From positions 1 to 56,155 of IMG/VR virus record IMGVR_UViG_3300050821_004792: a stretch of DNA of 56,155 nt, one strand, 5' to 3'. A program made the position numbers and the translations under genes. The stretch is from a virus. The stretch's first letter is position 1; each line of letters starts with the position of its first letter. The notes under the pieces are model-generated. The model saw only the letters and a list, made by a program, of their open reading frames with translations. It was not told the origin of the DNA and searched no databases. Shown one piece after another: positions 6,290 through 44,924 of this stretch.

Positions 6290-6967
6290 ATGGCGGTAAA
6301 TTTGAATGATCTGAACTTGGTAGAGGAAGAGGTACCGCAGGTGGATTGGGACGCTCCGGAGGGAGGGCTATATCCACCCAGCATTCCGGTTGGGGATCAC
6401 GATTTCATCTTCAAGCTCGCCGATGATCCCTATCAGTCCATCCAGCGAGAAGGAAAGAATGCGCTTCAGGTGACGTATGCGGCTACGACTACCGTGGACG
6501 GAACCGAGAAGACGCTGAACTACCAGCGAGTGAACACGCACCGATCAGCGGGGATGGTAGCGGCTAGGCGTAACGCGAGCGCATTCGAGCTGCTCCGGGC
6601 GCTAGGGACGAGAGTCACCGAGCCCACCGCTAAGAACATAGCGGCCGCCTTGGAAGATGCGAGCAACTCAGCCAAGCACTTCACCGCTGGCGTTCAGTGG
6701 CGTGGCTACTGCGACCATGGTGTCAAGGGAGCCAAGGATGGAATCGAGGTGGCGACGAGGCCTAGCAAGAAGAAAGTAGCGGCTGGCACGCAGTTCGCCT
6801 GGCCGAGAAACGCTGACGGACAGTTCGAGCTATTCGTGACCTGCCCCAAGTGTAAGCAGGGAATGAAGGTCAACGCAGAGATCGCGGATTTCCATCTTCC
6901 CAAGGATGGGGTGACCACAGTGGCCAGCTCAACTAACGGTAATGGCACCAGCAGCGTGAATATCTAG
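6290..6967 (+). CDS. Hypothetical protein with four-Cys zinc-binding region, recombination cluster
   Basis: A 225-residue protein with aaaggag before the ATG. The N-terminal half is mixed alpha/beta. Cysteines at YCDHG (about 142) and CPKCKQG (about 194) could bind zinc. The C-terminal 20 residues are Ser/Thr/Asn/Gly-rich and probably disordered. It sits directly behind the Sak4-like ATPase, where many phages carry a single-strand-binding or partner protein. That role is inferred only from position. Confidence 0.65.
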   Translation: MAVNLNDLNLVEEEVPQVDWDAPEGGLYPPSIPVGDHDFIFKLADDPYQSIQREGKNALQVTYAATTTVDGTEKTLNYQRVNTHRSAGMVAARRNASAFELLRALGTRVTEPTAKNIAAALEDASNSAKHFTAGVQWRGYCDHGVKGAKDGIEVATRPSKKKVAAGTQFAWPRNADGQFELFVTCPKCKQGMKVNAEIADFHLPKDGVTTVASSTNGNGTSSVNI

Positions 6968-6975
6968 GAGGCTTG

Positions 6976-7230
6976 ATGCCCAACACAGGAACGAATGGTG
7001 ATGGCGTGAGCGGCGTGAGCCCACCGCTTCCCTCGGTCAGCCTGGCCGATCATATCTCGCTGGTTCTGCTAGATCTGGCAGGCGGCCCAGTCCGCCTCAA
7101 TCTCATCCTGAAGAAGCTAAATCAGCGCGGGGTCGTGATCACCGAGTCAGCAGTGATCAACTGTATGCAGCGGAAGCCTGAGCGATTTACACGATCGGAG
7201 CGAGGAATGTATGAGCTAGTTGTCGGGTAA
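6976..7230 (+). CDS. Small winged-helix-like protein
   Basis: An 84-residue protein; ATG 6976 is chosen because aggagg lies at the right distance. After a Gly/Ser/Pro-rich start, residues 25-80 suggest a winged helix (LVLLDLAGGPVRLNLILKKL, then GVVITESAVINCMQRKPERF, then RGMYELV). It may bind DNA. It closes the recombination block. Confidence 0.6.
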   Translation: MPNTGTNGDGVSGVSPPLPSVSLADHISLVLLDLAGGPVRLNLILKKLNQRGVVITESAVINCMQRKPERFTRSERGMYELVVG

Positions 7231-7237
7231 ATGGGCC

Positions 7238-7252
7238 AGACTGTAGCAGTCT
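7238..7252. terminator. Hairpin between operon segments
   Basis: AGACTG-TAG-CAGTCT is a perfect 6-base stem with a 3-base loop, 8 bases after a stop codon and before a fresh Shine-Dalgarno (taggag). It has no T-run, so termination is uncertain. It marks the break between the recombination genes and the secreted-protein genes. Confidence 0.35.
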
Positions 7253-7274
7253 AATTCGCTATAGGAGCGTCACA

Positions 7275-7670
7275 ATGATCAAGCAGATTGCCCTCTCTAT
7301 TTTGTCCCTGTTGCTGTTGCCGGCGTCGTTCGCGGTCGCACAGACCTATCAGTATCGGACTGAGCCGTCGCCAATGATATGGACGAAGCCAGATGGAGAG
7401 AAGTGGATGATTGTAGTCTGGTATCCACCTGCGGATTGCAGCGGCCTGGGAAATTCTCTTGTCTATTGCGAATGGGCTCCGGCGCGTCTAGGTGTGACGT
7501 GGGCTAAAACGGAATCTGAGGCAATAAAGTGGGCCAACGATACGCAATCAAACGTACTTGGCATCTATCGCGTCGAGGAAACGAAGCTCACTAAAACTGC
7601 AGTGCAAGAACGTGTCCCACAGCCTGATAGTTTTCGTAACAGAATCGTCTACAAATCGGAGAAACCATGA
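7275..7670 (+). CDS. Secreted hypothetical protein (Sec signal peptide)
   Basis: This 131-residue protein starts MIKQIALSILSLLLLPASFA and has the cleavage site AVA|QT, a typical Sec signal. The mature part is small and Trp-rich with two Cys (ADCSG, VYCEW) that could form a disulfide in the periplasm. Its stop overlaps the start of the next gene, which has the same kind of leader. The function is unknown. Confidence 0.7.
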   Translation: MIKQIALSILSLLLLPASFAVAQTYQYRTEPSPMIWTKPDGEKWMIVVWYPPADCSGLGNSLVYCEWAPARLGVTWAKTESEAIKWANDTQSNVLGIYRVEETKLTKTAVQERVPQPDSFRNRIVYKSEKP

Positions 7671-8185
7671 CCAAAGCCCTTCCCGCCCTATTCCTGCTGT
7701 TGTCTAGCATCTTTGCGGTCGCACAGACCCCAGCCTATACCACAAGCGTAAGTTTCGGGTGTAACGGAATTGTCTGCAACGGAGTGCCGCTCGATCAGGG
7801 CGGAGTGTGGCAGTTCATTGAATTGAACCAGGCATTCTCCGTGGACAACATAGTGAACGGAGTGTCCGTTTTGTATATCTACGGCAATCCGGGGAATTTG
7901 TCTACATACAACCCAGTCACTGGGGCTCCGGGCGGGATGCAGAACATCTCCGACCAGATTCCGCCGCCGCCCAATCTATACCTGAATGGCTCGACCGGAG
8001 CGGAGGGCACCTTGACCTTCAACTGGGGTGCGATCTCCAGCAACGGGACCACGTACTACACAGGGCATGCGGTAGTACAGGGGCATCGGGTCCGGCATTA
8101 CGCCCGCAGCCCGAGAGGAAGTGGGAGCTTCTACACGCAGATAGTGGTGGATGGGGCGCAGATTTATATCGACTCGGTGAACTGA
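7667..8185 (+). CDS. Secreted hypothetical protein (Sec signal peptide)
   Basis: A 172-residue protein with signal peptide MTKALPALFLLLSSIFAVA|Q. The mature region is beta-rich and Gly/Asn-rich with a CNGIVCNG pair, resembling the secreted fibre-like proteins further along on the minus strand. It is ATGA-coupled to the previous gene. Confidence 0.68.
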   Translation: MTKALPALFLLLSSIFAVAQTPAYTTSVSFGCNGIVCNGVPLDQGGVWQFIELNQAFSVDNIVNGVSVLYIYGNPGNLSTYNPVTGAPGGMQNISDQIPPPPNLYLNGSTGAEGTLTFNWGAISSNGTTYYTGHAVVQGHRVRHYARSPRGSGSFYTQIVVDGAQIYIDSVN

Positions 8186-8272
8186 TTGAGAGGGCAAGTG
8201 CGATTCAGCGCTTCCACTAACCCGGTCCGCCGAATCAGGGCAGCGGCCATCCCGCAAAGAAAGGAACCCGAA

Positions 8273-8520
8273 ATGAGACGCCATGCTAGGCCGCCGTTCA
8301 GTCGGTTCTGTGAACAGATTGAGATTGGAGACGGTTGTTGGAAAAGGCCCATCGCTTCAGCTTTGAGTATTTCGTGCAGTCCATACCTGTGGGACTCTGT
8401 GTACTGCATCACTGTGATAATCCACTATGCGTAAGGCCGAGTCACCTCTTCTTGGGAACCATGTCTGACAATACACAAGATATGGTTCGCAAGGGGAGGC
8501 ATCCTCGCGCAAGAAAGTGA
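8273..8520 (+). pseudogene. Broken HNH homing endonuclease
   Basis: ATG 8273, with aaaggaa upstream, begins a frame with the usual N-terminus of this family (PFSRFCEQIEIGDGCW). The C-terminal HNH core is in another frame: KAHRFSFEYF, then CVLHHCDNPLCVRPSHLFLG, then DNTQDMVRKGR, ending at TGA 8518-8520. The linking segment that normally holds W-x-G and G-Y-G is missing, and the frames change near 8335-8345. The gene appears inactivated by an internal deletion and frameshift. Confidence 0.7.
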
Positions 8521-8521
8521 G

Positions 8522-8746
8522 GTGCCAATTGACAAAAAATCATGCGATTCTGGCTATGAATTGCAGACAGACGGAACGTGCGCTCATTACGAGTGGCATG
8601 GCGACGAAATTCCCCCTGACTGGGGTAAGCCTTTTGAAAGCGACCGTCTTGATGGCAGTCATTGCGTTACTGAAACTAACCTTATTCCTGCCAAAACTGT
8701 CTGCACAAAACCTGCCAAACAAATCGCTGATCACCCGCGCCCGTAG
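8522..8746 (+). CDS. Small Cys-containing hypothetical protein
   Basis: A 74-residue ORF with GTG start 2 bases after the HNH remnant. Its sequence (SCDSGYELQTDGTCAHYEWH, DGSHCVTETN, TVCTKPAK) has four spaced Cys and looks translated, but the Shine-Dalgarno is weak. An overlapping frame at 8517-8774 is the less likely reading. From 8747 to 8854 I see no gene. Confidence 0.42.
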   Translation: MPIDKKSCDSGYELQTDGTCAHYEWHGDEIPPDWGKPFESDRLDGSHCVTETNLIPAKTVCTKPAKQIADHPRP

Positions 8747-8860
8747 AGACGCAGTACCGGAGGCGGCGAGTTAAATTCTGCGTCAAAAAGGTTCCGAATC
8801 AGCGACGGCTCGTTCCATGCCGCCGCCTGATCGGGCCATCACACAAAAGGAGCAAATGCA

Positions 8861-9196
8861 ATGGCACGAATCATGGTAGTCCTCGGATGTCTCATGCTGG
8901 GATTGGCGTTCTTGGCAACCCCGGCTCACGCGCAGTCACCACAGGCGGGCAAGCATGCTGCCATTCCGGTGCTGTCTGACAGGCTGTGCTGCGAATGCTG
9001 CGCCTCGTACGGGCCGTGCGGGTGTCAGATTTGTAGTCTGTGCCCACTGACGAAGCCAAGAGGGACGGAGCGGTCTATCTCGGAACTGGATCAACTGGAA
9101 AGCTTGGGAGTGCGAGTCTTCCGCAGTTCGCATCCTCTGATGGCTGGGCAGTCGCGGAAGTGTCCGAAGGTGGAAGCGTTGCTTGAGAAGAAGTGA
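8861..9196 (+). CDS. Secreted cysteine-rich protein
   Basis: A 111-residue protein with aaaggag upstream and the signal peptide MARIMVVLGCLMLGLAFLAT, cleaved at AHA|QS. The mature part has a dense cysteine block, CCECCASYGPCGCQICSLC. That could be a disulfide-rich knot or a metal site in the periplasm. An in-frame ATG 6 bases upstream is an alternative start. Confidence 0.65.
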   Translation: MARIMVVLGCLMLGLAFLATPAHAQSPQAGKHAAIPVLSDRLCCECCASYGPCGCQICSLCPLTKPRGTERSISELDQLESLGVRVFRSSHPLMAGQSRKCPKVEALLEKK

Positions 9197-9199
9197 GCG

Positions 9200-9218
9200 G
9201 TGGGGCGAAAAGCCCCAC
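9200..9218. terminator. Stem-loop with GAAAA loop
   Basis: GTGGGGC (9200-9206) pairs perfectly with GCCCCAC (9212-9218) around a GAAAA loop, just after a stop codon. The stem is strong, but only a short TT follows. It may be a weak terminator or an RNA-stabilising hairpin. Confidence 0.5.
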
Positions 9219-9232
9219 TTTGGAGAAGTGAT

Positions 9233-9625
9233 ATGAGTTTCGGAATTGGACCGCACGATTATGACTGTGATTGTTGGCGATGTCAGAGCCGTAGGAAGGC
9301 CGCGGAGTCCTCGAAAGCCAAGGAAGGGCCATTGCAGAAAATGGTTCTTGATTTAATTCGAGGCTATGTCCAGCGTCCAGATGTGCAGGCCAATACTCTA
9401 ACGATGCAGGTACTCAATTGCCTCGCTGGAGATGTGCAGGTATTGCCAGGGCAGACAGCGCCACGAAAGGGACCGCGTTGGAGTGTAGCGGCGTTGCCGG
9501 ATCGTGGCATCACGATTCCGTGCGATGGAACAGATTGTCAGTGGAACAATTCCGTACCGCACTTCCACGAACCTGCGAAAGTCGAGACGACCGGACAGGC
9601 ACAGGAAGCGCCAAAGGAGAAGTGA
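9233..9625 (+). CDS. Hypothetical protein with zinc-knuckle N-terminus
   Basis: A 130-residue protein. ATG 9233 is preferred because tggagaag lies before it; the in-frame GTG 9200 would place the hairpin inside the gene. The N-terminus has HDYDCDCWRCQSRRK, the middle is a helix (LIRGYVQRPDVQAN), and the C-terminus holds CDGTDCQW and a His (PHFHEP). It probably binds metal. The role is unknown. Confidence 0.55.
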   Translation: MSFGIGPHDYDCDCWRCQSRRKAAESSKAKEGPLQKMVLDLIRGYVQRPDVQANTLTMQVLNCLAGDVQVLPGQTAPRKGPRWSVAALPDRGITIPCDGTDCQWNNSVPHFHEPAKVETTGQAQEAPKEK

Positions 9626-9936
9626 TGAATCAAGAATATAGCGAGTCTAGCAATCTCGACGCGGACGAATGGGACGCGGAATATCGCCGCCAAGAAGCCG
9701 CTAAGGTTCCCTGCGAAATGTGCGTCAACGGCCAATGGGAAGCGGAGTGCTGTAACGGTGCGGACGGCTGTTCGTGTCATGGTCTACCCGTCCAAATGGG
9801 TACGTGCCAAGTCTGCGGTGGAACTGGGATGCGCTCTATCAACGCCGACAAAATGGCTAACGCCAACCTCATCCGTAGGAGTGGTCGTTGCTTCTTAGGA
9901 AGCGGACCACGTAGCGGATATTGGGCGGGAAAGTGA
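9625..9936 (+). CDS. DnaJ-type zinc-finger-like small protein
   Basis: A 103-residue protein whose ATG shares its A with the previous stop. Cys pairs CEMC, ECC, CSC and CQVCGGTG resemble the CxxCxGxG repeats of DnaJ zinc fingers. There is no J domain. It may bind zinc and protein or nucleic acid. Confidence 0.55.
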   Translation: MNQEYSESSNLDADEWDAEYRRQEAAKVPCEMCVNGQWEAECCNGADGCSCHGLPVQMGTCQVCGGTGMRSINADKMANANLIRRSGRCFLGSGPRSGYWAGK

Positions 9937-9949
9937 AGGAGTGAGGCCC

Positions 9950-10141
9950 ATGCAAAACGCAAGGATCGGTCTGATAGCAGTGATGTTACTGATGACAGCA
10001 GGCTGCGCAGCCAAAAACGTAGCTCGGGCCATGTACTGCGAGCACAAGACGCCGGACGGCAAACACTGTACAGTCTGGGCGAAGCATCCTACCGAGTGCG
10101 TGCATGACGTGTACGGCGGATGTACGGCGGATACGAAGTGA
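9950..10141 (+). CDS. Small lipoprotein
   Basis: A 63-residue protein with a lipoprotein signal (MQNARIGLIAVMLLMTAGCA; lipobox L-M-T-A-G-C). ATG 9950 fits gaagga better than GTG 9941. The mature part has four further Cys (YCEHK, HCTVW, ECVHD, GCTAD). It is a likely outer- or inner-membrane lipoprotein; it is too short to call a spanin. Confidence 0.6.
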   Translation: MQNARIGLIAVMLLMTAGCAAKNVARAMYCEHKTPDGKHCTVWAKHPTECVHDVYGGCTADTK

Positions 10142-10181
10142 CGGCGCTGGAGGATCTGACGCTGGAGACGGAGGCGAGGAA

Positions 10182-10373
10182 ATGACTGCTGAGGAGATTC
10201 GTAAAGAATCAGCGCATGGACCTAGGAATACGTCCGAGGATTGGATGGGGCATGCTATTTGGGAAGTCGCTGCACAACTTGCCGACTTAAATCAAATCCT
10301 GCGCATTCTTCCAGGAAAGTTTAGCGATGGAGACCGGATAAGAATTGAGGAGTTGGAGAAGCCGGAAAGGTAA
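10182..10373 (+). CDS. Small hypothetical protein
   Basis: A 63-residue ORF; ATG 10182 has ggaggcgagga before it. It is charged and mostly helical (WEVAAQLADLNQILRILPG). It sits 5 bases before the next gene. The function is unknown. Confidence 0.5.
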   Translation: MTAEEIRKESAHGPRNTSEDWMGHAIWEVAAQLADLNQILRILPGKFSDGDRIRIEELEKPER

Positions 10374-10378
10374 CCGAG

Positions 10379-10993
10379 ATGACAGACGAACGAGCAATCA
10401 AGGCAGCAAAAGAACTAGCGGACGTGTTTAATGCTTCTCGATATGTCGAGCAGAAAGCCGTCGAGATCATCGAGCGTCACTACCGGGCCGCGACGACAAC
10501 GGAGAGCCGCGATTTAGCCACGTTCATTGCTGAAGAGCTATTCGATACAAACCTGAGTGCCATCTCTGCCATCGCAGACATGATCCGCCCAATTTTAGAT
10601 AAATGGGCCGCGACGAAGGCAGAAACGTCACACGATGCTTTGTTGTTGATTGCGGACAACGTGATTAAAGAACTCCGCCAATGTCAAGGCATGGGAGAGT
10701 TGGCATTCAGTAGATCGCTGATCGCTGACGCTATCGGTGGTGCGACGAAGGCAGAAACGTGCCCCACGTGCGGCGAACCGTGGCAGATGGCAGATGTCGA
10801 AGCGTCAAACTGGCAGATGCACCCGAAGTATTGCCCTAATGCGTGGCACTCTCCTGCGCCAGCGCCACAGCAACCCACAATCGAAGTTTCGGCGGAACAG
10901 GTTGGACACTTCAAATCCGTCATCGGCACAGACAAGATAGTTGGTGCGCCTGTGCCAGCGGTAACCAGCGAAGAGGAAAGCGGCAATGCTTAA
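10379..10993 (+). CDS. Hypothetical helical protein with internal repeats and CxxC
   Basis: A 204-residue protein, mainly helical in the first 120 residues, with a CPTCGEPW half-ribbon and a Pro-rich disordered tail. Three related segments (AATTTES, AATKAETS, GATKAETC) recur. At DNA level a 19-base exact repeat lies at 10610-10628 and 10742-10760. Its end overlaps the UDG-exonuclease start. Confidence 0.55.
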   Translation: MTDERAIKAAKELADVFNASRYVEQKAVEIIERHYRAATTTESRDLATFIAEELFDTNLSAISAIADMIRPILDKWAATKAETSHDALLLIADNVIKELRQCQGMGELAFSRSLIADAIGGATKAETCPTCGEPWQMADVEASNWQMHPKYCPNAWHSPAPAPQQPTIEVSAEQVGHFKSVIGTDKIVGAPVPAVTSEEESGNA

Positions 10994-12335
10994 CTGTTCT
11001 AGCATCTGTAACGGCTGCCCAGCTCAGGCTTGGGGAGATAAGCGGATTATGCCCAATGGCAGCGGATCGAGCGGGATCATGTTGGTAGGTGAGTCACCTT
11101 GGCTGGACGAGATGAGGCAGGAAAGAAACTTCGCTGGAGCGGCAGGAGCAATGCTGGACAGGTGCCTGCGACGGCTAGGGATGGAGCGCCAGCAATTGAT
11201 CGTAGCCAACTCCGCATGGTGCAAAGCTCCAAGGCTCGGTTTCTTCGATAAACCCAGTCCGCTTAGCGAGGAAGTAATGGAACATTGCCGTCCACACTTG
11301 GATCAGCTGATTGAAAGAACCAAGCCAAAGGTGATAGTAACCTTGGGCGGAGTAGCGCTGAGGCGAGTGTGCGGTGTGACAGGGATCACCAATCGACATG
11401 GTTACGTCCATGACTCACCGTATGGAATCCCGGTGATACCTTCATGGCATCCGTCCTATATTCTCCAAGGAAACGCCAAGTTCCAGTCAGTTCTCATGTT
11501 TGCGCTGAGACGGGCACAGGAGGTAGCCAAGGGTGAGTGGCAGCGCTCGTCAATCAGCTATGTGCTGGATGATTATGAGGCAATGCAGAAATACCTAAGT
11601 GAGCCGGGATGGTCGTTGTTAGCGCTTGATATCGAAACTCCCAAATCCGGCAAGCTCGATGAGGAAACGGTCGATGAAGAGGACGCTAGCTACACGATCA
11701 TCCGCGCAAGCCTGAGCCATACTCCGAACACAGCCTGTAGCTTCCCATGGATTGAGCCGTTTATCAGCCTAGCACGTGAAGCTGTAGCGCGGGCTGGTGT
11801 GGTGATCATGCATAACGAAAACTTTGACCGGCCTAGGCTGGAAGCAGCAGGATTCAGATTCGGCGAGGTCCATGACTCCATGTGGGAGTGGCATTTCCTG
11901 CAAAGTGACCTGCCAAAGGGGCTCGGCTTCATCGCGCCGTTCTATTATGACGGGCCTTCATGGAAGCACCTGAACGATGCTCAGCCAGACTTCTACTCAG
12001 CATGTGACGCGGACGCGACAATTAGGTGCTATCTAGGAATCAAGCGAGATCTCCAGGCTCAGGGCCGCTGGGATCGCTGGCTGCGGCATTGCGTTCAGGT
12101 GCTGCCGATATTCAGACGTATGGGGCAGCGCGGAATTCTCATCGACCGGACCCAACAATCTGCGCTCAAGGTGCAGCTCCAAGCTGAATATGACGTGGCC
12201 TATGAGAAGCTGCAAGGTGAGGTGCCGGCGGCGGTACTGCCAGTGAAAGTGTACAAGACCGGGAAGCAGGGCGGTGTCGAGCATCGCGTTAAATGTGATT
12301 GTCAATCCAAGGAGGCTGTAAATGAGCAAGCATAA
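10986..12335 (+). CDS. Fusion: family-4 uracil-DNA glycosylase + 3'-5' exonuclease (first half of a split family A DNA polymerase)
   Basis: A 449-residue protein. Residues 1-185 are a UDG of the Fe-S type: Cys8, Cys11, Cys79 and Cys101, GESPW (35-39) and HPSYIL (155-160). Residues 205-360 are a DnaQ-like exonuclease with all three motifs: D215-I-E217, N277-x3-D281 and Y337-x3-D341. A polymerase-type helix follows (VLPIFRRMGQRGILID), and the protein stops just after a CDC zinc knuckle (437-439). The second half (C4/C7 knuckle, then polymerase) is at 13097. Family-4 UDG removes uracil from DNA; fused to a proofreading domain it could scan the template. Possible uracil control of phage DNA is inference. 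Confidence 0.88.
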   Translation: MLNCSSICNGCPAQAWGDKRIMPNGSGSSGIMLVGESPWLDEMRQERNFAGAAGAMLDRCLRRLGMERQQLIVANSAWCKAPRLGFFDKPSPLSEEVMEHCRPHLDQLIERTKPKVIVTLGGVALRRVCGVTGITNRHGYVHDSPYGIPVIPSWHPSYILQGNAKFQSVLMFALRRAQEVAKGEWQRSSISYVLDDYEAMQKYLSEPGWSLLALDIETPKSGKLDEETVDEEDASYTIIRASLSHTPNTACSFPWIEPFISLAREAVARAGVVIMHNENFDRPRLEAAGFRFGEVHDSMWEWHFLQSDLPKGLGFIAPFYYDGPSWKHLNDAQPDFYSACDADATIRCYLGIKRDLQAQGRWDRWLRHCVQVLPIFRRMGQRGILIDRTQQSALKVQLQAEYDVAYEKLQGEVPAAVLPVKVYKTGKQGGVEHRVKCDCQSKEAVNEQA

Positions 12336-12555
12336 GTCGGAGGAAGAGGTAATTATCAACTTTTTTCAGTCCGCCCACATTGAGCGGGCTATGGCGGTGT
12401 TTAACATGGTCAAGGCGACAATCAAGACGAGGACAGCGGCGACCGCTGAGCCTGCTCCGAAGCCAGTCATCCATCGGAGGAAGCGTAAGGCCAATTCTGG
12501 CAGCGTTCTTCCGCATCTTCCTGCCGATCAGGCGGTAGCGGTCAAGGAGGCATAG
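12322..12555 (+). CDS. Small basic hypothetical protein inside the polymerase split
   Basis: A 77-residue ORF; ATG 12322 has ccaaggagg upstream and overlaps the end of the UDG-exonuclease gene by 14 bases. The N-terminal helix (EEEVIINFFQSAHIERAMAV) is followed by a basic, probably disordered tail. It is the first of four small ORFs between the polymerase halves. Confidence 0.55.
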   Translation: MSKHKSEEEVIINFFQSAHIERAMAVFNMVKATIKTRTAATAEPAPKPVIHRRKRKANSGSVLPHLPADQAVAVKEA

Positions 12556-12557
12556 CG

Positions 12558-12719
12558 ATGCTGGCAACCTTCACTGGAACCGAAGAAGACCCCATCACTC
12601 ACCGGATGATCTCGGATCGGTGCTGGAATATGTGGCATCAAGAGGAGGATGAGGTACCACATAAAGACTGCTCAGCAGCCGGATGTGAGTGTACCTGTCA
12701 TGACTGGATGAAGCCATGA
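12558..12719 (+). CDS. Small Cys/His-rich protein
   Basis: A 53-residue ORF with ggagg 7 bases before the ATG. It ends KDCSAAGCECTCHDWMKP, a Cys-rich tail that could bind zinc. Its TGA overlaps the ATG of the next gene (ATGA). Confidence 0.5.
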   Translation: MLATFTGTEEDPITHRMISDRCWNMWHQEEDEVPHKDCSAAGCECTCHDWMKP

Positions 12720-12916
12720 CGCACTACCACAACCGCCAATATGACCAACGCTACTCAGCTGAGCGGAGATACCAACTCCGCTTGGCTGGGATGTGTGAGA
12801 GCTGCGGGAAGGTAAGGGTGGAGAGGTATGGGAAGTGTGCTGACTGCCTAGAGCGGCACCGACAGTCCAAGATGCGCAAGGGAGGGCACAATGGCCTATC
12901 ACCAACTTACCACTGA
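12716..12916 (+). CDS. Small zinc-ribbon protein
   Basis: A 66-residue basic protein with HNRQYDQRYSAERRYQLR followed by MCESCGKVRVERYGKCADC, a C-x2-C...C-x2-C ribbon. Such short proteins resemble the N-terminal part of phage HNH or DNA-binding proteins, but no nuclease core is present. It overlaps the next ORF by 26 bases. Confidence 0.55.
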   Translation: MTHYHNRQYDQRYSAERRYQLRLAGMCESCGKVRVERYGKCADCLERHRQSKMRKGGHNGLSPTYH

Positions 12917-13097
12917 AAGTGGCGGCGACGAGAATTCCCGGATCAACGAGGCCCGGGAAATTTGCCGGATGCTTGAAGAGTTCACCGAGCAGATGTCGGA
13001 AAAGGAGCAGTCTTTCATCGGCGATATGACTGACTGCGACTACTGTACAACAAAGCAACTGTTTTGGCTGCGTGATATCAAGGATAGGTACCTCTGA
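12891..13097 (+). CDS. Small helical protein before the polymerase gene
   Basis: A 68-residue protein with aagggagggcaca before the ATG. It reads EICRMLEEFTEQMSEKEQSF, then a CDYC pair, then LFWLRDIKDRYL. Its final base is the first base of the polymerase ATG, so the two are translationally coupled. Related short proteins are common in phage replication blocks; the function is unknown. Confidence 0.55.
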   Translation: MAYHQLTTESGGDENSRINEAREICRMLEEFTEQMSEKEQSFIGDMTDCDYCTTKQLFWLRDIKDRYL

Positions 13098-15268
13098 TGC
13101 CCAAATGTAGACGCTGCAAGGATACCGGGGAAACGTCAGAGTGGCATATCCCGATGGAGTTTAATCCCGGATCGGCGCTACAGAAAGCTAACCTGATCAA
13201 GCATTACGGGCTGGCCATGCCACACAAGCGAGGAGAAGACAGACTCACTACGGAATCCAAATACCTGAAGCGCTTCGCTAAGAAGTTTCCCGTCTTCGAT
13301 CGCATCATTGAGTGTCAGCAACGGGAGAAACTAATATCCACCTATATGTGGGAAGGTCGCCCCGATGGTCGTATTTCGACAATCTATGGATTCGCTCCGT
13401 CAACGTGGCGCAAAAGTAGCCGTCAAGTTAACCTTCAGAATATCCCGAAGCGGTCAGATCTTGCACATCTATTTCGAAAGATGCTCATTGCAGCACCTGG
13501 GCATGTTCTCATCGAGGCCGACTCGTCAGCAATTGAGGCAGTGCTTGTTGGCTTTTGTGCAGGAGATGCCGAGTATATTCGGCTGGCCCAGCTCGGGATT
13601 CACGACTTCGTTACCGCAAAGTGGTTATCGCTGGAGGTGGACGCCGGATGGGAAACAGAGAGTCTTAGAAGTGTCCTCAAGGGAATGAAGCGGGATCATT
13701 CAGACACTCGGGAAGCTGCTAAGCGTGGAGTACATGCTTGCCTTCCTGGAGATCACGAAGTATTGACTGAATCTGGCTGGGTACGTCTAGACGAGCTTTC
13801 AGCCGGAGTTCCTGTAGCACAGTGGGATAAAGGAAAGGTAAGTTTTGTCGCTCCGGTAAGGCACAGCTACAACTATCAGGGCTCTTTGATCAGTTTACAT
13901 GGTCGAGGGCTGAGCATCCGCATGACTCATAACCATCGTGTTCCTGTGTGTCGTGTTGGTCTCCATGATCTTAAAGTTCATCCAGCAGAAAGCCTCCCTC
14001 ACACAGGGCGGATACCAGTTTGTGGTGTGCTGGATGGGCCTTTAGGAACAGCAGGGTGGCTACAATTGGATATAGCGATCGCTGCGGATGCTAGTGTCAC
14101 CAAATTCAATCAGAGCGGTACGGCACAAGTAGCCTTCCACCTAGTGCGGCCTCGTAAGATTGAGCGTCTGAAGTGGCTGCTAAGAGTAGTCGGTATAAAG
14201 TTCTCGGTTAAGCCCTGTAAGTGCCACCCGAATGGTGTCAAGGTACGATTCACACATCCTGCGAATTCTCCTTGGCTAGAACGTGATTTGAAGACCTTTC
14301 GTATAACACCCTTACTCAATCTATCGCTGGCGACGAAGCGAATATTCCTTGAAGAACTGTTGCATTGGGACGGTACTGGCCGGGAACGGAAGGCTGGTAG
14401 CCAAACCAAATACATGTGCATAAACTACAAAAACGTCGTGACTGTGCAGACTATCGCCCATCTAACGGGTCAGCAATCACTAGTTCGGGGACATCCGCTA
14501 AATGGATATGTCAAGGACACAGATCGTCTCATATGGGACGCCTCTTATAATAATCGAAAGTTCTCTAGCATCGCTGAGAATGAACGCTGGGCAGAAACCT
14601 TTACAGGAACTGTTTATTGTCTGACCGTGCCGTCAGGATTCTTTATGGTACGTTATCAAGATCGGATCAGTGTAACTGGGAATAGCAACTACCTCCTGAG
14701 CCCCCACGGCCTGAACGATGAGTATCCTGAGTATTTCCCAACCCAGCGCAAGGGAAGGGAGTTCCAAGAGTTCTACTTCGGCTTGTTCCCCAAACTCCGG
14801 AGCTGGCACCAGTCGACGCTGGAGCGGGTGCATAGGGAAACGTACCTAGAGAATCACTACCAGTACCGTCACTACTTTTACTCCGTCTTCAGCTTTGACA
14901 AACGCCGGAATGACTGGATTCTCGGCGACGATGCCAAGCGTGCAGTAGCGTTCGTACCACAGTCGGACGCCTCAGCGATCCAGACCGAAGATATCATCCT
15001 GCTTGATAGCATGCTGGAAGTGGCGCCATATCTGCGTCTCATCATCCATGATAGCGTCGTCCTAGAAGTCCCCGAGAATGAGCTGGAATCGGTCGCTAGA
15101 AGGGTGCATACTGTGATGACCAGGCCACGAGCCGAGCTGGCCGGCCTCGCGATCGGCGCCGAGGTGAGCTGGGGACCAAGTTTAGGTGAGATGAGTCCGT
15201 TAACGTTTAAGGAGGAAACTAAATGCAATGTTCCAGAACAGCACGTTCAATTGGGAGTTTCGCTTTAG
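13097..15268 (+). CDS. Family A DNA polymerase domain (second half) containing an intein
   Basis: This 723-residue precursor yields a 408-residue polymerase after intein removal. It starts with PKCRRCK, completing the zinc knuckle of the upstream half. Visible motifs: the R-x-x-NLQNIPKR strand (112-119); motif A IEADSSAIEA with Asp142; O-helix TREAAKR (205-210); and, after the intein, motif C IIHDS (Asp652). Motif C has Ser where E. coli Pol I has Glu. RAVAFVPQSDASAIQ is the helix before motif C. The exonuclease is in the separate gene ending at 12335. It replicates phage DNA, presumably as a complex of both halves. Its 3' end overlaps the lipoprotein-like gene by 46 bases. Confidence 0.9.
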   Translation: MPKCRRCKDTGETSEWHIPMEFNPGSALQKANLIKHYGLAMPHKRGEDRLTTESKYLKRFAKKFPVFDRIIECQQREKLISTYMWEGRPDGRISTIYGFAPSTWRKSSRQVNLQNIPKRSDLAHLFRKMLIAAPGHVLIEADSSAIEAVLVGFCAGDAEYIRLAQLGIHDFVTAKWLSLEVDAGWETESLRSVLKGMKRDHSDTREAAKRGVHACLPGDHEVLTESGWVRLDELSAGVPVAQWDKGKVSFVAPVRHSYNYQGSLISLHGRGLSIRMTHNHRVPVCRVGLHDLKVHPAESLPHTGRIPVCGVLDGPLGTAGWLQLDIAIAADASVTKFNQSGTAQVAFHLVRPRKIERLKWLLRVVGIKFSVKPCKCHPNGVKVRFTHPANSPWLERDLKTFRITPLLNLSLATKRIFLEELLHWDGTGRERKAGSQTKYMCINYKNVVTVQTIAHLTGQQSLVRGHPLNGYVKDTDRLIWDASYNNRKFSSIAENERWAETFTGTVYCLTVPSGFFMVRYQDRISVTGNSNYLLSPHGLNDEYPEYFPTQRKGREFQEFYFGLFPKLRSWHQSTLERVHRETYLENHYQYRHYFYSVFSFDKRRNDWILGDDAKRAVAFVPQSDASAIQTEDIILLDSMLEVAPYLRLIIHDSVVLEVPENELESVARRVHTVMTRPRAELAGLAIGAEVSWGPSLGEMSPLTFKEETKCNVPEQHVQLGVSL
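13739..14683 (+). other. Intein in DNA polymerase (with degenerate homing domain)
   Basis: These 315 residues (215-529 of the precursor) begin with Cys: CLPGDHEVLTESGWVRLDEL is block A. Block B is GLSIRMTHNHRVPV, with THNH. The end, GTVYCLTVPSGFF...ISVTGN, is blocks F and G, followed by Ser as the +1 extein residue. The junction reads GVHA / SNYLLSPHG, inside the polymerase O-helix. The middle has weak LAGLIDADG-like segments (DIAIAADAS; FLEELLHWDGT), so homing activity is doubtful. The penultimate residue is Gly rather than the common His. Confidence 0.9.
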
Positions 15269-15792
15269 CATGTGTCGTGGCGATGGGCACGATGACCACT
15301 ACCGCCTGCCCCACCGACCAAGTGCTGGCAGACCTAAACTTGGCCCTACAGATCGCCGTCCAGATCATTCCAGCAGTGACGGCCGTCAGTCCAGTCGAGG
15401 GAGCTGCCATCCAACGAGTCAGCGCCGTCGCCACTGGGATCCTGACCGTAATCGAGTCCGACTATCGGGCATACGAGGCGTCTAAGGCCGTTACCGATCT
15501 CCAGAAGTTACAGGCAGTCCTCGATGCAGCCAAGGCTAACCTGACTGCTGAGATCGCTGCTGCTCACATCACCGATCCAGCAGTTGTCGCCAAGGTGACT
15601 GCGTGGGCCAATCTCATCTATAGCGTAACTGATGCGATCCTGAGCGCGATTGAGGGTAACGGCGGCGCCGCGAGTGTGCCAGTGCGAGCTATGAAACTGA
15701 GTAAGCCACTACCGACACCGAAGGCACTCAAGGCGGGGTGGTCAGGGAATGTCTGTAAAGGGGAAGAGGCATGCTCGGCTCTAGTTAGGTGA
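15223..15792 (+). CDS. Putative exported/lipoprotein-like helical protein
   Basis: A 189-residue protein with a strong aaggaggaaac before the ATG. Residues 8-29 form a signal-like hydrophobic stretch ending TTTAC, a possible lipobox. The rest is Ala-rich and helical (DLNLALQIAVQIIPAVTAVS), with a final Cys pair (VCKGEEAC). It is the last plus-strand gene and converges on the lysin gene, overlapping it by 8 bases. A spanin- or holin-like role is possible but not shown. Confidence 0.55.
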   Translation: MQCSRTARSIGSFALACVVAMGTMTTTACPTDQVLADLNLALQIAVQIIPAVTAVSPVEGAAIQRVSAVATGILTVIESDYRAYEASKAVTDLQKLQAVLDAAKANLTAEIAAAHITDPAVVAKVTAWANLIYSVTDAILSAIEGNGGAASVPVRAMKLSKPLPTPKALKAGWSGNVCKGEEACSALVR

Positions 15793-16177
15793 ACAGCCCA
15801 TTGGGGATCGTGGCTAGCACCTCCAGTTCCCGGTCCCCGCTGGTCCAGATCTTCTCCCGGATGTCCCGGCTAAGGATAATGCATCCCTCGCTGGAAAAGC
15901 CTGGGCTGATCACTGAGTCTCCATGGATCAGAAATCCGAATCTGTCGAACATGATATTGCCAGTGGAAGGGTCAAGAGGTAGAACGTATGGCCCATGTGT
16001 GACTGTGTCCCTAGGCTCTCCGATCGCATAGCCTCCTACCGGAATCGGTCCAAGATTGTGGAGGCTAGTGGCATCCGGGCGGTTCTTGTACTCAAGGGCA
16101 CCGGAGTAGCCAATTCCAATAAGGTCTCCGGTAGCGGAGTATATCCTCCCGCTGATTAACTCGTAGAACCAGCTCAT
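15785..16177 (-). CDS. L,D-transpeptidase-like peptidoglycan enzyme (DUF2778/Tlde1 type), candidate lysin
   Basis: A 130-residue protein with the motifs LHNLGPIPVGGYAIG, THGPYVLPLDPSTGNIMF, FLIHGDS and SSEGCIILSRDIREKI. The His in HGDS and the Cys in SEGCI are the catalytic pair of the YkuD-like/DUF2778 fold. Relatives cut or exchange peptidoglycan cross-links. Standing first in a block with membrane proteins, it is the best lysin candidate in the genome. There is no signal peptide, so it would need a holin. Confidence 0.78.
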   Translation of the reverse strand: MSWFYELISGRIYSATGDLIGIGYSGALEYKNRPDATSLHNLGPIPVGGYAIGEPRDTVTHGPYVLPLDPSTGNIMFDRFGFLIHGDSVISPGFSSEGCIILSRDIREKIWTSGDRELEVLATIPNGLFT

Positions 16178-40522: not shown

Positions 40523-41527
40523 CTAGGTCATGCCGTTGATGATCGCGGCAGTACGGGGATTCACGTTGGTCAGCTGCTCCACAACGACCACCCTCGTGCT
40601 CACCACTTCCTGGTTGCTGCTCATCAGCCAAGGCCGGATGATGTAATAGCCCTTGTTGTGATAATTCATCCAGAAATATTTGCTATTCCACATATACGCC
40701 GTACCTGCCGTGATGTACTGATCAGCTAGCACCACGCAGTTGTTAAAACGGAAGTGGTAGCGGATTGACGTCTGCACCGGCTCCTTGTCGGACATGTTAT
40801 TCACGACGTTGATGATTGACGGCGAGGAGCTAATGTTAGCCGTGAACTGGGTCTTGAAGTTACCGTAGTCGTAGTTGTTCATGAGGAAGGTGTCAGGTTC
40901 GTCGTAGCCGAAGGCGAGGGACTGATAGAGCTTCTCAGCGTTGATCACGGTCAGGGCGCCAGCACCGTTAGCGACTGCTGGAGATGGGTTCCATGCGGTC
41001 GTGGTCGAGCGGTTGATCCCGGCGATGGTATTGTTCTGAGTGGCGATCCAGTTGGGGATGCTGTCGATATCAATCGCCGAGTTTTGCGGTGCGATTCCCC
41101 AGTTGGCACGGGCAAGTTTGGGTAGCAGTGAAGCCGCGCAGACTTGCATTTTGGCCTTTACCACGTCGATCGCGCTAGCGCCGCCAGATCCGAGGATCAC
41201 GTCGAGGGTTGGGATCGCCGCAGCTTGGTAGTAAGCTCGCCATACCTGGTTGGCGGGCTGGATAGAGTCGATAACGGAAGTGTTTAGGAGCTGGTCTCCC
41301 CAGAACGCGCCACCGGTTGGTTCCTCTTGGGTGAGCAATGGGAATATCAGCTCAGCTCCGGTGATGTGTTTGCCGGAGCGCTGGAGAGCCCAGTGGGTGG
41401 GGGAGGGCTTGATCACGATATCCGAGAGGAATGGCGCAATTTTCTTCTGACTAATTGCATCGAGCGTCCCCTGTAATAGTGCTGAGGGAGAAGATATTCC
41501 AGTTCCAACTACGCCTACTCCAGGCAT
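40523..41527 (-). CDS. Major capsid protein
   Basis: 334 residues, preceded by aaaggagcaatc. The N-terminal arm (LDAISQKKIAPFLSDIVIKP) and the P-domain-like later part (NYDYGNFKTQFTANI; IRYHFRFNNCVVLADQYITA) fit an HK97-fold capsid. The scaffold-like gene is two genes upstream, and the decoration and adaptor genes are downstream, the usual order. I recognise the fold from context and size more than from one motif. Confidence 0.7.
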   Translation of the reverse strand: MPGVGVVGTGISSPSALLQGTLDAISQKKIAPFLSDIVIKPSPTHWALQRSGKHITGAELIFPLLTQEEPTGGAFWGDQLLNTSVIDSIQPANQVWRAYYQAAAIPTLDVILGSGGASAIDVVKAKMQVCAASLLPKLARANWGIAPQNSAIDIDSIPNWIATQNNTIAGINRSTTTAWNPSPAVANGAGALTVINAEKLYQSLAFGYDEPDTFLMNNYDYGNFKTQFTANISSSPSIINVVNNMSDKEPVQTSIRYHFRFNNCVVLADQYITAGTAYMWNSKYFWMNYHNKGYYIIRPWLMSSNQEVVSTRVVVVEQLTNVNPRTAAIINGMT

Positions 41528-41544
41528 GTGATTGCTCCTTTAAA

Positions 41545-41967
41545 CTAAACTTTCGGCGCTACAGGGGCCACAGGTGGAGGGGCCACTGGAACGGGTGGTA
41601 CGGAAACGGGTGTGGAGGCCGCCACTGGCTTCTGTACTGCTGCGAACGCTTTCGCGAAAGCCTCCGCATCGACCGACTGAAGGGCCTGCTTATAGGCAGC
41701 TGCGTCGGCTTCGGCTTTGGCCTTGGCAGCAGCGTCGGCAGCAGCGGCAGCGGCGGCAGCCGCCTTAGCAGCAGCCTTATCGGTTAGCTCCTTCTCAGCC
41801 TTCTTGAGTTCGGTGGGATCGGTGATGATCAGGCCGACCTCGTCAACAACCATGGTGGACATCTGGTCGGCTACATAAGCTAAGGCTGCGCCCCCCAGAT
41901 TGACTCCGCTATCGTTCAGGGCCCGATTCAGGCTAGTCGCGAATCTCGTGTTGAAGCCATCTTTCAT
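41545..41967 (-). CDS. Ala-rich coiled protein of the head operon
   Basis: 140 residues. A folded start (FNTRFATSLNRALNDSGVNL) is followed by a long Lys/Ala helix (AAAKAAAAAAAAADAAAKAK) and a Pro/Val tail. It sits between scaffold and capsid, so a capsid-assembly helper or minor virion protein is possible. Confidence 0.55.
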   Translation of the reverse strand: MKDGFNTRFATSLNRALNDSGVNLGGAALAYVADQMSTMVVDEVGLIITDPTELKKAEKELTDKAAAKAAAAAAAAADAAAKAKAEADAAAYKQALQSVDAEAFAKAFAAVQKPVAASTPVSVPPVPVAPPPVAPVAPKV

Positions 41968-41974
41968 AGGTCAC

Positions 41975-42802
41975 CTATTGAAGCTGGGATGGATCGAAGG
42001 CCTTTTGCGCTTCCTCCAGCTGTTGCATCAGTTCGTCGTCGCTCATGACGTCGTCACCGAGACCTTCGAGGCCATGTTCCTCGACGGCAGAGCGCTTGGC
42101 ACCGGCACCCTTACCACCGCCAGCGGATGACGGCCGTGACGTGGCCGCTAGTCGAGAACGCTGGAGTCCCTCACGGATTCCCTCCTCACGAGCCAGTTTC
42201 TTGGCCTCCTCGATGTCGTCGACGCGGGTCAGCTGGTTGACGGCCTTATCCACTGAGGGGAAGCCGAATTCGTCGAGGATGTTGTTCTTGGTGGCATACT
42301 CACGGACTTTGTCACGGTCCCAGTCAGCGTAGTCCTTGGACTTCTTTAGCTTGGAAGCAACACGCTCAAACTGGTTGCTCCAGCGCTCGGTAGCGAACAT
42401 GACGGCAGCTTTCTCAAAGGCAGCCTTGAGGGACTCGCGTTCAGCCTTTTCAGCTTTCAGTTGAGACTCGAGAGCGGCAACGCGTTTACGAGCCGGAGTC
42501 CACCAGTTGTTAGTCTCCCACTCATCTTCCTCACCGGTTGGCTGCTTGCCACGAGCAGCTTCGGCTTCGATCGCCTTTTTCTGCATAGCGTCGAGGTTGT
42601 TGTAGATTTCGCTAGCCTTGGTGGCCATCTCGGTCGCTACGCGTTCGCGCTCGGAGGCGGCGGTGAGCTTGTCGGAGAGATCCTTTTGCTGCTTGGTGGT
42701 CAGGCCACGTAGGTCGCCAAGCTTAACTTTGTGTTCACCGAGCTGCATTTCCAGATCATCGGTGAAGGTCTTCGAGTCGTTCAGAATTTCTTGAAGTGTC
42801 AT
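41975..42802 (-). CDS. Scaffolding protein
   Basis: 275 residues, highly charged and helical, with long coiled-coil stretches (about 45-135) and an acidic C-terminal region (GLGDDVMSDDELMQQLEEAQ). It has no hydrophobic core domain, matching phage scaffolds. It is encoded upstream of the capsid gene. Confidence 0.7.
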   Translation of the reverse strand: MTLQEILNDSKTFTDDLEMQLGEHKVKLGDLRGLTTKQQKDLSDKLTAASERERVATEMATKASEIYNNLDAMQKKAIEAEAARGKQPTGEEDEWETNNWWTPARKRVAALESQLKAEKAERESLKAAFEKAAVMFATERWSNQFERVASKLKKSKDYADWDRDKVREYATKNNILDEFGFPSVDKAVNQLTRVDDIEEAKKLAREEGIREGLQRSRLAATSRPSSAGGGKGAGAKRSAVEEHGLEGLGDDVMSDDELMQQLEEAQKAFDPSQLQ

Positions 42803-42804
42803 CG

Positions 42805-43242
42805 CTACATTCCTCCGCTAGGGGATGGTTCAGCTTGGGGTGGCTGGGCGGCGCCCATGTTGAGAGGTGCTCGAACGGCGCTGTTGGTTGAAGCGGCTTG
42901 CTGGATCTCTTTGATGACCCGGTCAAATTGAGGAACCAGCTTGAGTAGTTGACCGGCTACGTTAGGGAGGCGTTCAAGGTTCTGCACGCCCAGTGATGCA
43001 CAGATTTTCTTGATCTGGGTGACCTGCCGAAGCAGCATTCCTGGATCAGCTCCCTTTAGCTCGGAGACTTGCTGGGCATACTGGGCACCTGCGTCCTCGC
43101 TGGGAGCGCCGCTAGCGCCGGGTACTCCGGGCATCCCTGGCGTCTGACCAGGCATGGTCGCTCCAGGCGCACCGCCGCCACCAGCTGTCCGCGACTGGAG
43201 CGCGGACATGATGATTGACGAGAGTGGATTGCCAGCGCTCAC
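42805..43242 (-). CDS. Hypothetical head-operon protein
   Basis: 145 residues: a Gly/Pro-rich start (GGGGAPGATMPGQTPGMPGV), a central helix (LLRQVTQIKKICASLGVQNL) and a Pro-rich end. Similar proteins lie between portal and scaffold genes in other podoviruses. The function is unknown. Confidence 0.55.
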   Translation of the reverse strand: MSAGNPLSSIIMSALQSRTAGGGGAPGATMPGQTPGMPGVPGASGAPSEDAGAQYAQQVSELKGADPGMLLRQVTQIKKICASLGVQNLERLPNVAGQLLKLVPQFDRVIKEIQQAASTNSAVRAPLNMGAAQPPQAEPSPSGGM

Positions 43243-43458
43243 TTAGCCTTTCGTGCCGTCCCCGAATAACTTGATCAGGTTAAGGGGATCAGGGCTGACA
43301 TAGTTGGTATCGCCGACTGGGCCAGCGACTTCTTTCATGTCATTGGGAGGGACCAGCGCATCCCCCTCGGCGTCGATATTGAGGGGGGTGGCCATGTCGG
43401 GGAGGCAGCCTTTGATGGGCGTGCCATACATATCGGGATAAGTTCCTTTGTTTTTCAT
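43243..43458 (-). CDS. Small hypothetical head-operon protein
   Basis: A 71-residue protein, acidic and Pro/Asp/Gly-rich, with little predicted structure. It starts 10 bases after its upstream neighbour and ends directly before the next gene start. The function is unknown. Confidence 0.55.
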   Translation of the reverse strand: MKNKGTYPDMYGTPIKGCLPDMATPLNIDAEGDALVPPNDMKEVAGPVGDTNYVSPDPLNLIKLFGDGTKG

Positions 43459-43468
43459 AGCTTAGCTC

Positions 43469-43855
43469 CTAGCGAACTCCTTCTCTGGCGAATGGCGCTT
43501 TCAGCTTACGGCTGGCACCTTTGAAATTGATTTTGGCTTCGCGGCGCTGGGACATGCTGCTTGGACCCTCGGGAACTAGGTCACCCGCATTCTTGTACGA
43601 TCCTTCGAATTCGGTGAGGGCGTAGTTGGCAACTGTTTGGGGGCCTTGGGCAGGCCAGCCATAAAACTCGGAGTCAGGAACAGTCGTGCCTTCGGGGAAA
43701 TAGCCAAGGGGATCTTCGGGAACGCCACCAGCGGTGACGGGATTGTGATCGTACTGGGGGCCTGCGTAGCTCTCGTTCTGGGGAGAGAGCAGCACCACCC
43801 GCTGATCTTCCTTCATCGGTGCACGGTTGCGTAGGCCGTGTTCGTTGTCCTGCAT
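43469..43855 (-). CDS. Hypothetical head-operon protein
   Basis: 128 residues, Pro/Tyr/Gln-rich in the middle, ending in a basic segment (REAKINFKGASRKLKAPFAR). It has no recognised domain. It follows the cluster of tiny basic proteins. Confidence 0.55.
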   Translation of the reverse strand: MQDNEHGLRNRAPMKEDQRVVLLSPQNESYAGPQYDHNPVTAGGVPEDPLGYFPEGTTVPDSEFYGWPAQGPQTVANYALTEFEGSYKNAGDLVPEGPSSMSQRREAKINFKGASRKLKAPFAREGVR

Positions 43856-43876
43856 CAGGTCACCTCAGAGTTGTGA

Positions 43877-43896
43877 GGGAGGCGGTTAAGCCTCCC
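43877..43896. terminator. Stem-loop between tiny basic gene and head genes
   Basis: GGGAGGC (43877-43883) and GCCTCCC (43890-43896) form a perfect 7-base stem with a GGTTAA loop. No T-run follows on the minus strand, so it may stabilise or separate transcripts rather than end them. Confidence 0.45.
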
Positions 43897-43905
43897 CCGG
43901 TTAGC

Positions 43906-43974
43906 TTACTTGCGTTTGCCCTTACGGCCATGACGCCCGCCGCGCCGATTCTTGACTTCGGTTAGCTTCATCAT
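43906..43974 (-). CDS. Tiny basic peptide (22 residues)
   Basis: ATG 43974 has aagggag upstream. The peptide, MMKLTEVKNRRGGRHGRKGK plus two residues, has about half Lys/Arg/His. It is one of four short basic ORFs in a row. At this length coding is supported only by the Shine-Dalgarno and by the similar neighbours. Confidence 0.45.
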   Translation of the reverse strand: MMKLTEVKNRRGGRHGRKGKRK

Positions 43975-44039
43975 TGGTTTAGCTCCCTTCTGGCAACAGC
44001 CACAAAGCGTTTCCGCCTCAGAGCAACGCTGTCACCGGT

Positions 44040-44165
44040 TTAATAACGTCCGCTTTTGCGCCGTCCGCGTCCCTTGCCGCGCTTCATTTTCTTTCCTCCA
44101 GCCTTCACCGTGCCCTTGCGCATGTCGAGGGCAGGAATTGTCGAGGGCACTGGCGTATACTTCAT
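44040..44165 (-). CDS. Tiny basic protein (41 residues)
   Basis: MKYTPVPSTIPALDMRKGTV opens the protein, and the end is KRGKGRGRRKSGRY. An internal ATG with ggaggaaag upstream (at the codons for MKRGKGRG) could also make a 15-residue form. Its ATG overlaps the preceding TGA. The strongly cationic tail suggests nucleic-acid binding. Confidence 0.5.
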   Translation of the reverse strand: MKYTPVPSTIPALDMRKGTVKAGGKKMKRGKGRGRRKSGRY

Positions 44166-44299
44166 TTCCGGATACCGCGTCTTCCCCTCATCCGCGATTT
44201 ACGATTCAGCTTTCCTGGCTGCGACTTCGTGGCCATCTTGTGAGGGCCGAGGCGCATGACCTTATGTGAGGGATGCTCGACATTGCTGAATTTTGCCAT
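44162..44299 (-). CDS. Small basic protein, paralog B (45 residues)
   Basis: MAKFSNVEHPSHKVMRLGPH followed by KMATKSQPGKLNRKSRMRGR and RGIRK. It has ggggag upstream and a start sharing one base with the stop of paralog A. It has the same length as paralog A and shares PHKMA-x-KSQP and the end R/S-M-RGRRG-I/V-R. Confidence 0.6.
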   Translation of the reverse strand: MAKFSNVEHPSHKVMRLGPHKMATKSQPGKLNRKSRMRGRRGIRK

Positions 44300-44436
44300 C
44301 AGTGCCGAACTCCCCGGCGGCCACGCATTGAGCGCTGGTTCTGGCGCTTGGGTTGGGACTTGTTGGCCATCTTGTGTGGCATGAAGCGTTGGACCTTGGT
44401 TTTGGCACTCCCTGGGTCGGTGTGTTTACCTGCCAT
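44299..44436 (-). CDS. Small basic protein, paralog A (45 residues)
   Basis: MAGKHTDPGSAKTKVQRFMP followed by HKMANKSQPKRQNQRSMRGR and RGVRH. It has aggag upstream. It is a tandem duplicate of the next gene with the same length and C-terminal motif. The composition resembles packaged DNA-condensing proteins; this is inferred. Confidence 0.6.
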   Translation of the reverse strand: MAGKHTDPGSAKTKVQRFMPHKMANKSQPKRQNQRSMRGRRGVRH

Positions 44437-44444
44437 GACGTCTC

Positions 44445-44672
44445 CTAGGCTCGCGCCGCACTTTGGTCGACGTACTCTTGCATGGTCAAAGCCTGAGAGC
44501 GCATATGATCAAGGAACTGATCCTCGGTCATGTCGACAACGTTCCCGTGAGGCTCAAAAAACGGCGGGTATGGTCGGCCGTCGACCGCAAACTGAGCCAG
44601 CCAGCACTCTCCATCCTTGACCAGACGGAGCATCTCGAACTTATGGCCGATGAGTTCGGGATAGTAGCTCAT
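44445..44672 (-). CDS. Small hypothetical head-operon protein
   Basis: 75 residues with a compact alpha/beta look: FEMLRLVKDGECWLAQFAVD followed by FEPHGNVVDMTEDQFLDHMR. The fold is unknown. It lies just downstream of the HTH gene that precedes it in the operon. Confidence 0.6.
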   Translation of the reverse strand: MSYYPELIGHKFEMLRLVKDGECWLAQFAVDGRPYPPFFEPHGNVVDMTEDQFLDHMRSQALTMQEYVDQSAARA

Positions 44673-44708
44673 AGAATCAGCGTGGGGGCTATAGCGGCCA
44701 ATGTCAAC

Positions 44709-44924
44709 TTATGGTGTGGAGTTTGTGGTGATGCGGGTGTAGATGTAGCGGGGGACGCCGACGATCCAGTGACCAGTTTCGTCCTGACGGAGCATGTAAC
44801 CGAGTTCGATCATGAAGCCATTGACGCACCAGCGCCGGATGGATTCGGGATGGCGGTTATAGATCTCGGCTACGGTGGATATTGGCAGCCAGACGAGGTC
44901 GGGATCTTGGAGGGAGGGGATCAT
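44709..44924 (-). CDS. Small helix-turn-helix (MerR/excisionase-like) protein
   Basis: 71 residues. WLPISTVAEIYNRHPESIRR fits an HTH_17-type DNA-binding helix pair, followed by a wing-like MLRQDETGHWIVGVPRYIYT. Its ATG overlaps the portal stop. Inside a head operon it could be a packaging helper or late regulator. Confidence 0.62.
   Translation of the reverse strand: MIPSLQDPDLVWLPISTVAEIYNRHPESIRRWCVNGFMIELGYMLRQDETGHWIVGVPRYIYTRITTNSTP

Follow-up and report, generated by a model that had tools for sequence, protein, structure and literature searches.

The window, a virus record from IMG/VR analysed over its whole length of 56,155 bases, encodes a family A DNA polymerase (hereafter W) for which one ancestral gene, joining a uracil-DNA glycosylase (UDG), an exonuclease and a PolA domain, is divided in two; judging from the sequences, this is a genuine, inherited fission, and the cut runs through a zinc knuckle. 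Gene A (10986..12335, plus strand) codes for 449 amino acids comprising a family-4-like UDG domain, a DEDDy 3'-5' exonuclease, the thumb helix H and the first half of the knuckle. Gene B (13097..15268, plus strand) codes for 723 amino acids, or 408 without an intein, comprising the second knuckle half, the remaining thumb, the palm and the fingers. Both genes lie where an earlier note on this DNA had placed them; they are neighbours and are translationally coupled. The product of gene A ends in HRVKCDCQSKEAVNEQA at the stop codon, a terminal stretch also given at another length as VKCDCQSKEAVNEQA, and that of gene B begins with MPKCRRCKDTGE. The profile of the phage polymerase family PHROG 17 was matched over positions 481-885 in A and resumed at 895 in B. 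This continuity across the two genes indicates a single ancestral polymerase that was cut once.

The UDG domain of A (residues ~8-165; 11007..11480, plus strand) was recognised by Pfam (PF03167, E 5.2e-22, 78.9 bits against a cut-off of 24.3). The residue table shows the four Fe-S cysteines C8, C11, C79 and C101 as well as N75 and H155, and the HPS motif is present, which places the domain in the UDG superfamily. Because its match to TIGR00758 (E 3.9e-23) reached 82 bits, under the curated subfamily cut-off of 125.3, we call it family-4-like and its activity putative. From this domain we can only infer a check for uracil during replication, as the earlier note had suggested. The fusion of UDG, exonuclease and PolA is itself old and common, being widespread among PHROG 17 phages (e.g. 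SPO1 gp31). Alignments and the residue table further revealed the exonuclease motifs ExoI D215/E217, ExoII D281 and ExoIII Y337/D341 (11628..12008, plus strand), that is, the D-E, D and Y...D pattern of the DEDDy 3'-5' exonucleases. The first knuckle half, C437-D-C439 (12294..12302, plus strand), is found near the C-terminus.

Gene B starts with the second knuckle half, C4-RR-C7 (13106..13117, plus strand), and carries the motifs A (D..E), B (K...Y) and C (HD) of family A polymerases together with a Pfam DNA_pol_A match (E 5.2e-29). Motif B is whole only once an intein, missed in the earlier note, is taken out. This intein spans 315 residues from C215 to N529, with S530 as the +1 residue (13739..14683, plus strand). 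An alignment to the intein annotated in Mycobacterium phage Turj99 covered block A (CLPGDHEVLTESGW), block B (MTHNHRVP), block F (VYCLTVPSGFFMVR) and block G (ISVTGN/S); Cys1, the T..H pair, the terminal Asn and the +1 nucleophile are all present, and AADAS and HWDGT are LAGLIDADG-like. Residues 215-529 matched inteins of phage primase and ribonucleotide reductase genes with E down to 3e-25, and these matches extend roughly as far as the borders of the intein. Sequence searches of Pfam, NCBIfam and PDB returned no match for the intein, no relatives of it were found in IMG/VR, and its single-sequence structure model (pLDDT 33) was too low for use. At this position the split relative G026 reads HGSNYLLS with no insert, which constitutes an empty site. 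The intein is thus predicted to need splicing out for the 408-residue mature polymerase half to form. A fractured gene with a split intein, reportedly the arrangement of Dassa et al. grouped with the MIJ3-type split polymerase, was rejected as a class for W, since A ends in KCDCQSKEAVNEQA and the intein is whole inside B.

Family members were collected with a motif-A DNA pattern (16 members) and a second motif pattern (3 more), giving 20 with the window. A single-protein pattern search combined with an alignment search for close relatives gave no match, and the second motif pattern applied to genome contigs retrieved 21 Pelagibacteraceae loci, none encoding this polymerase family. Eight of the 20 members are split (W, G026, G039, G021, G025, G027, G023 and G029), a count that gives no frequency as the sample was drawn by motif, and 12 are intact as far as read. 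The unsplit UDG-exonuclease-polymerase relatives are 45-52% identical, and aligning the junction with them, as the earlier note had proposed, showed a complete knuckle in G037 (RCECKRTRKATGRCLLCDGLG, CxC...CxxC), G028 (VCECKRVRKATGRCLLCDDTR, CxC...CxxC) and G038 (TCSCGSARGETSSGKCRKCKGTG; wider reading NVTCSCGSARGETSSGKCRKCKGTGHLTW). The knuckle is therefore ancestral and the cut runs through it, in agreement with that note. In W the cut lies between KCDCQ on A and KCRRC on B. G026, from a different metagenome, shows the identical split with four coupled ORFs and no intein; its A ends in EVECPLCTKEVEV at the stop codon, its B starts as TTG-TCKKCGDTGK, and its cut lies between EVECPLC and TCKKCGDTGK. 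The worry that relatives might share the split with no unsplit ancestor thus proved unfounded, both kinds being present. In a third knuckle-split lineage, G039, the genes overlap, A carrying TCEKC and B carrying TCSTC, and gene B most likely starts at a GTG after GGAGG, inside the end of gene A. All three lineages carry CxC/CxxC on A and CxxC on B, two cysteines per subunit, and the tail sequence near these cysteines differs among them.

An AlphaFold model of the intact G038 protein (18-sequence alignment, mean pLDDT 85) adopted a Klenow fold (best PDB match E 1.3e-25). The four cysteines (468, 470, 482 and 485) lie between its strands 462-467 and 490-497; residues 471-490, at pLDDT 54-75, are among the least certain thumb stretches, and no metal was modelled. 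By this model, the first such strand would end A in W and the second would begin B. The thumb itself is cut in W: helix H stays with A and the other thumb elements go with B, so that B alone is devoid of thumb helix H. Furthermore, the fission site aligns with the insertion point of T7 gp5, which follows the first thumb helix and precedes the FNPxS segment. This T7 gp5 insert is the established thioredoxin-binding domain (Bedford 1997, via citing papers).

We consider it probable that the two products assemble into one two-subunit polymerase through a hairpin and a shared zinc site. Subunit A would bring the UDG, the proofreading exonuclease and thumb helix H, and subunit B the remaining thumb, the palm and the fingers, the intein in motif B being spliced out first. 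The break lies at the apex of a hairpin that is inserted after thumb helix H and before the FNPGS segment. There the C-terminal strand of A with its CxC could be paired with the N-terminal strand of B and its CxxC, forming an intermolecular beta-hairpin with a zinc site common to both subunits. Such a meeting of the subunits and rebuilding of the site, as the earlier note had anticipated, we infer from the 2+2 retention of cysteines and from the splitting within a domain. A likely route would be that this tolerant loop acquired a stop and an internal start, giving an overlapping-gene state as in G039 and G025, and that small phage genes then accumulated at the junction, as in W and G026. By analogy, the closest experimental support for assembly comes from phage 25, of which the split 43A/43B proteins co-purify and polymerise (PMC2988022).

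Alternatively, the products could act apart, A as a free repair UDG-exonuclease and B as a proofreading-free polymerase, with the cysteine pairs either left over or binding zinc separately. Separation does recur in the family (8/20), and the polymerase of ctLwi270 is cut at the exonuclease/thumb boundary, which suits independent modules. Work cited in PMC10061031 indicates that PolA with a truncated thumb retains some activity, and with such tolerance B might work alone. However, the position of the W cut inside the thumb, the two cysteines per subunit in every knuckle-split lineage and the continued adjacency and coupling of A and B argue against separate action, which we regard as unlikely.

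On the tree of the split label, supported branches force at least three changes and parsimony needs four, a count that may include re-fusions. The knuckle character requires one change. A single clade of the three knuckle-split lineages was not rejected (p 0.156), so the knuckle split represents either one event followed by a re-fusion or two events. G021, G025 and G027 are split and have no knuckle, which indicates that zinc is not required for splitting. In G021 and G025 the cut lies in the same thumb loop as in W; the G025 genes overlap with no insert, and the G021 halves, also with no insert, are in frame with a single TAG between them (L086 reverse complement, 2748-2750). Readthrough of this TAG is conceivable, yet it is followed by a TTG start whose homolog serves G025. 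G027 is cut in the thumb loop as well, with a weakly methyltransferase-like ORF in between; its gene A also contains a low-complexity Ser/Gly/Ala-rich insert of ~160 residues between UDG and exonuclease (L084, about 1919-2410). G023 and G029 are cut at the thumb/palm boundary, and in G029 the halves are parted by 3.5 kb of other genes (L085, 3528-6905), including two large ones of 539 and 405 aa. We tentatively propose, as a possibility that falls somewhat short of even chances, that the thumb-tip loop is a recurrent fission site where phages repeatedly made a two-subunit polymerase, one clade being zinc-clasped with half of the cysteines on each subunit.

The gap between A and B in W measures 761 nt (12336-13096) and holds four tightly coupled small ORFs on the plus strand, which bears out the earlier description. 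ORF1 (12322..12555), a basic protein of 77 residues, starts 14 nt within gene A; ORF2 (12558..12719; 53 residues, Cys-rich C-terminus CECTCH) begins 2 nt past ORF1 and overlaps ORF3 (12716..12916; 66 residues, two CxxC pairs) at an ATGA; ORF4 (12891..13097; 68 residues) overlaps ORF3 by 26 nt, and its stop overlaps the start of gene B at a TGATG. ORF1 has a homolog at the same place in G026 (L083:4471-4683, minus strand; local score 69, equalled by 0/2000 shuffles), and homology of ORF2-4 between W and G026 was unsupported, the best pair, W2-G4, reaching 0.036 among 16 comparisons. With ORF1 alone in common, the cargo turns over while the split persists. As for the presence of the intervening block in close relatives, a point raised by the earlier note, the sharing with G026 thus extends to ORF1 and the block is not conserved as a unit.

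The content of these gaps bears on whether a homing endonuclease, since lost or decayed, made the split, as proposed for split T4-type genes; the ORFs would then be remains or later arrivals, and the halves might still assemble. The G023 gap does hold an Endonuclease VII ORF (Pfam E 7.7e-20), and precedents exist (PMC2988022). However, ORF1-4 matched no endonuclease family in profile searches, the G023 cut lies elsewhere (thumb/palm), and G039, G021 and G025 are split with no insert, which renders this origin distinctly unlikely. W was also compared with the homing-endonuclease-split kind represented by phage 25 43A/43B, and this assignment was rejected as there is no endonuclease gene in the W gap. 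It is very improbable that an intron or an inserted mobile element makes up the gap and is spliced out or bypassed to yield one polypeptide. Introns and inteins are common in phage polymerase genes, SPO1 gp31 has an intron, and one was suggested for MEP401 (PMC10580990), but Rfam searches detected no intron in the window at the gathering threshold nor in L083-L085 and L087, B starts at the TGATG, and the end of gene A overlaps ORF1. In addition, the small ORFs of G026 are mostly different while the gene ends are the same, and G039 and G025 are split without an insert.

The tree placed W and G026 as sisters with support of 100/100. Their proteins are 59/61% identical (A/B) by global alignment and 58-60% by BLAST, and the tails near the cut are 42% conserved vs 59-61% elsewhere, a weaker conservation that speaks against the assembly of the halves. 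Gene A gave pN 0.296 and pS 0.847, and gene B pN 0.294 and pS 0.822; the saturated synonymous sites and the low nonsynonymous divergence point to purifying selection on both halves. All checked catalytic residues of the UDG Fe-S site, the exonuclease and the polymerase are kept in both W and G026. The records are metagenome contigs and the G021 halves are parted by one in-frame TAG, yet the same split on the independent G026 contig, at this divergence and with intact catalytic residues, leaves a negligible chance to a sequencing frameshift, a decaying pseudogene or an assembly error, including the one at 12310-13100 that the earlier note had considered.

Split phage polymerases are already known from phage 25, MEP401 and MIJ3. 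In the Aeromonas T4-type phages 25 and 44RR (gp43A/gp43B; PMC2988022), a replicative polymerase is likewise cut, with extra sequence or genes between; that polymerase is, however, of family B, its halves are separated by a seg endonuclease gene or by an untranslated spacer, and no UDG or zinc knuckle is described at the break. The Methylophilales phages MEP401/402 (PMC10580990) also have a family A polymerase split in two ORFs, with one small ORF between, kept in many relatives, but the cut lies in the polymerase domain just before motif A, the UDG domain is absent and residue 762 is Phe. Pseudomonas phage MIJ3 (PMC6892783) combines a split PolB with a split intein whose two parts sit on either side of the break and could reunite the chain, whereas the W intein is whole, inside B and far from the break. 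The PHROG 17 or SPO1-type polymerases (SPO1 gp31, PMBT14, vir526) carry UDG, exonuclease and PolA domains in this same sequence within one enzyme; those examined are single chains, those aligned have no thumb knuckle, and they bear Phe762 or Tyr762. T7 gp5 has its extra segment at the same place (first thumb helix / FNPxS), a likeness that we draw from position: it is a single chain without UDG, and its insert is the binding site for host thioredoxin, with no CxC/CxxC knuckle. In Caulobacter phage Kuura and in ctLwi270 (MW202554), UDG-exonuclease and PolA are likewise separate with small ORFs between, but Kuura is cut inside the exonuclease, ctLwi270 at the exonuclease/thumb boundary, and both share only about 21-26% identity with the window proteins. 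What appears to be new here is the in-thumb fission through a zinc knuckle, the 2+2 cysteine retention and the recurrence at the T7 insert site; a limited, partial literature search found no description of in-thumb knuckle fission.

Splitting an essential enzyme within one domain should be costly, yet this split is inherited and repeated close together. The series from intact with knuckle, through split and overlapping, to split with four genes makes the fission testable stepwise. If the zinc site is shared between the subunits, W would be a natural metal-clasped split polymerase, useful for conditional or switchable enzymes; if recurrent zinc-clasped fission is true, the UDG-proofreading module would be detachable or tunable.

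At the position of E. coli PolI Phe762 in motif B, the residue table gives His213 in gene B (13733..13735, plus strand), and His occupies this position in 20/20 family members and in Caulobacter phage Kuura (L008). One viral PolA survey retained only Phe, Leu or Tyr at 762 (PMC9069017), so this clade may be unstudied; our literature search returned no paper on a His762 polymerase, and the family is likely under-sampled.

Downstream of the polymerase, the window encodes a Tlde1 domain protein (15785-16177, minus strand; Pfam E 4.4e-12) with homologs in L051, L058 and L084; the Tlde1 family is known from type VI secretion effectors. The capsid, portal and terminase genes (40523-49681) are ~70% identical to those of phages L013-L046 (TerL about 70%), and no relative of the W polymerase was found in the six longest of these records, which indicates that structural and replication modules are mosaic. 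In G039 (L093, 8415-9017), gene A is immediately preceded by a homolog of the window gene at 6290-6967. That gene and gene A are separated in the window by ~4 kb of small ORFs (6973-10993), so that small genes have gathered both inside the polymerase and upstream of it.
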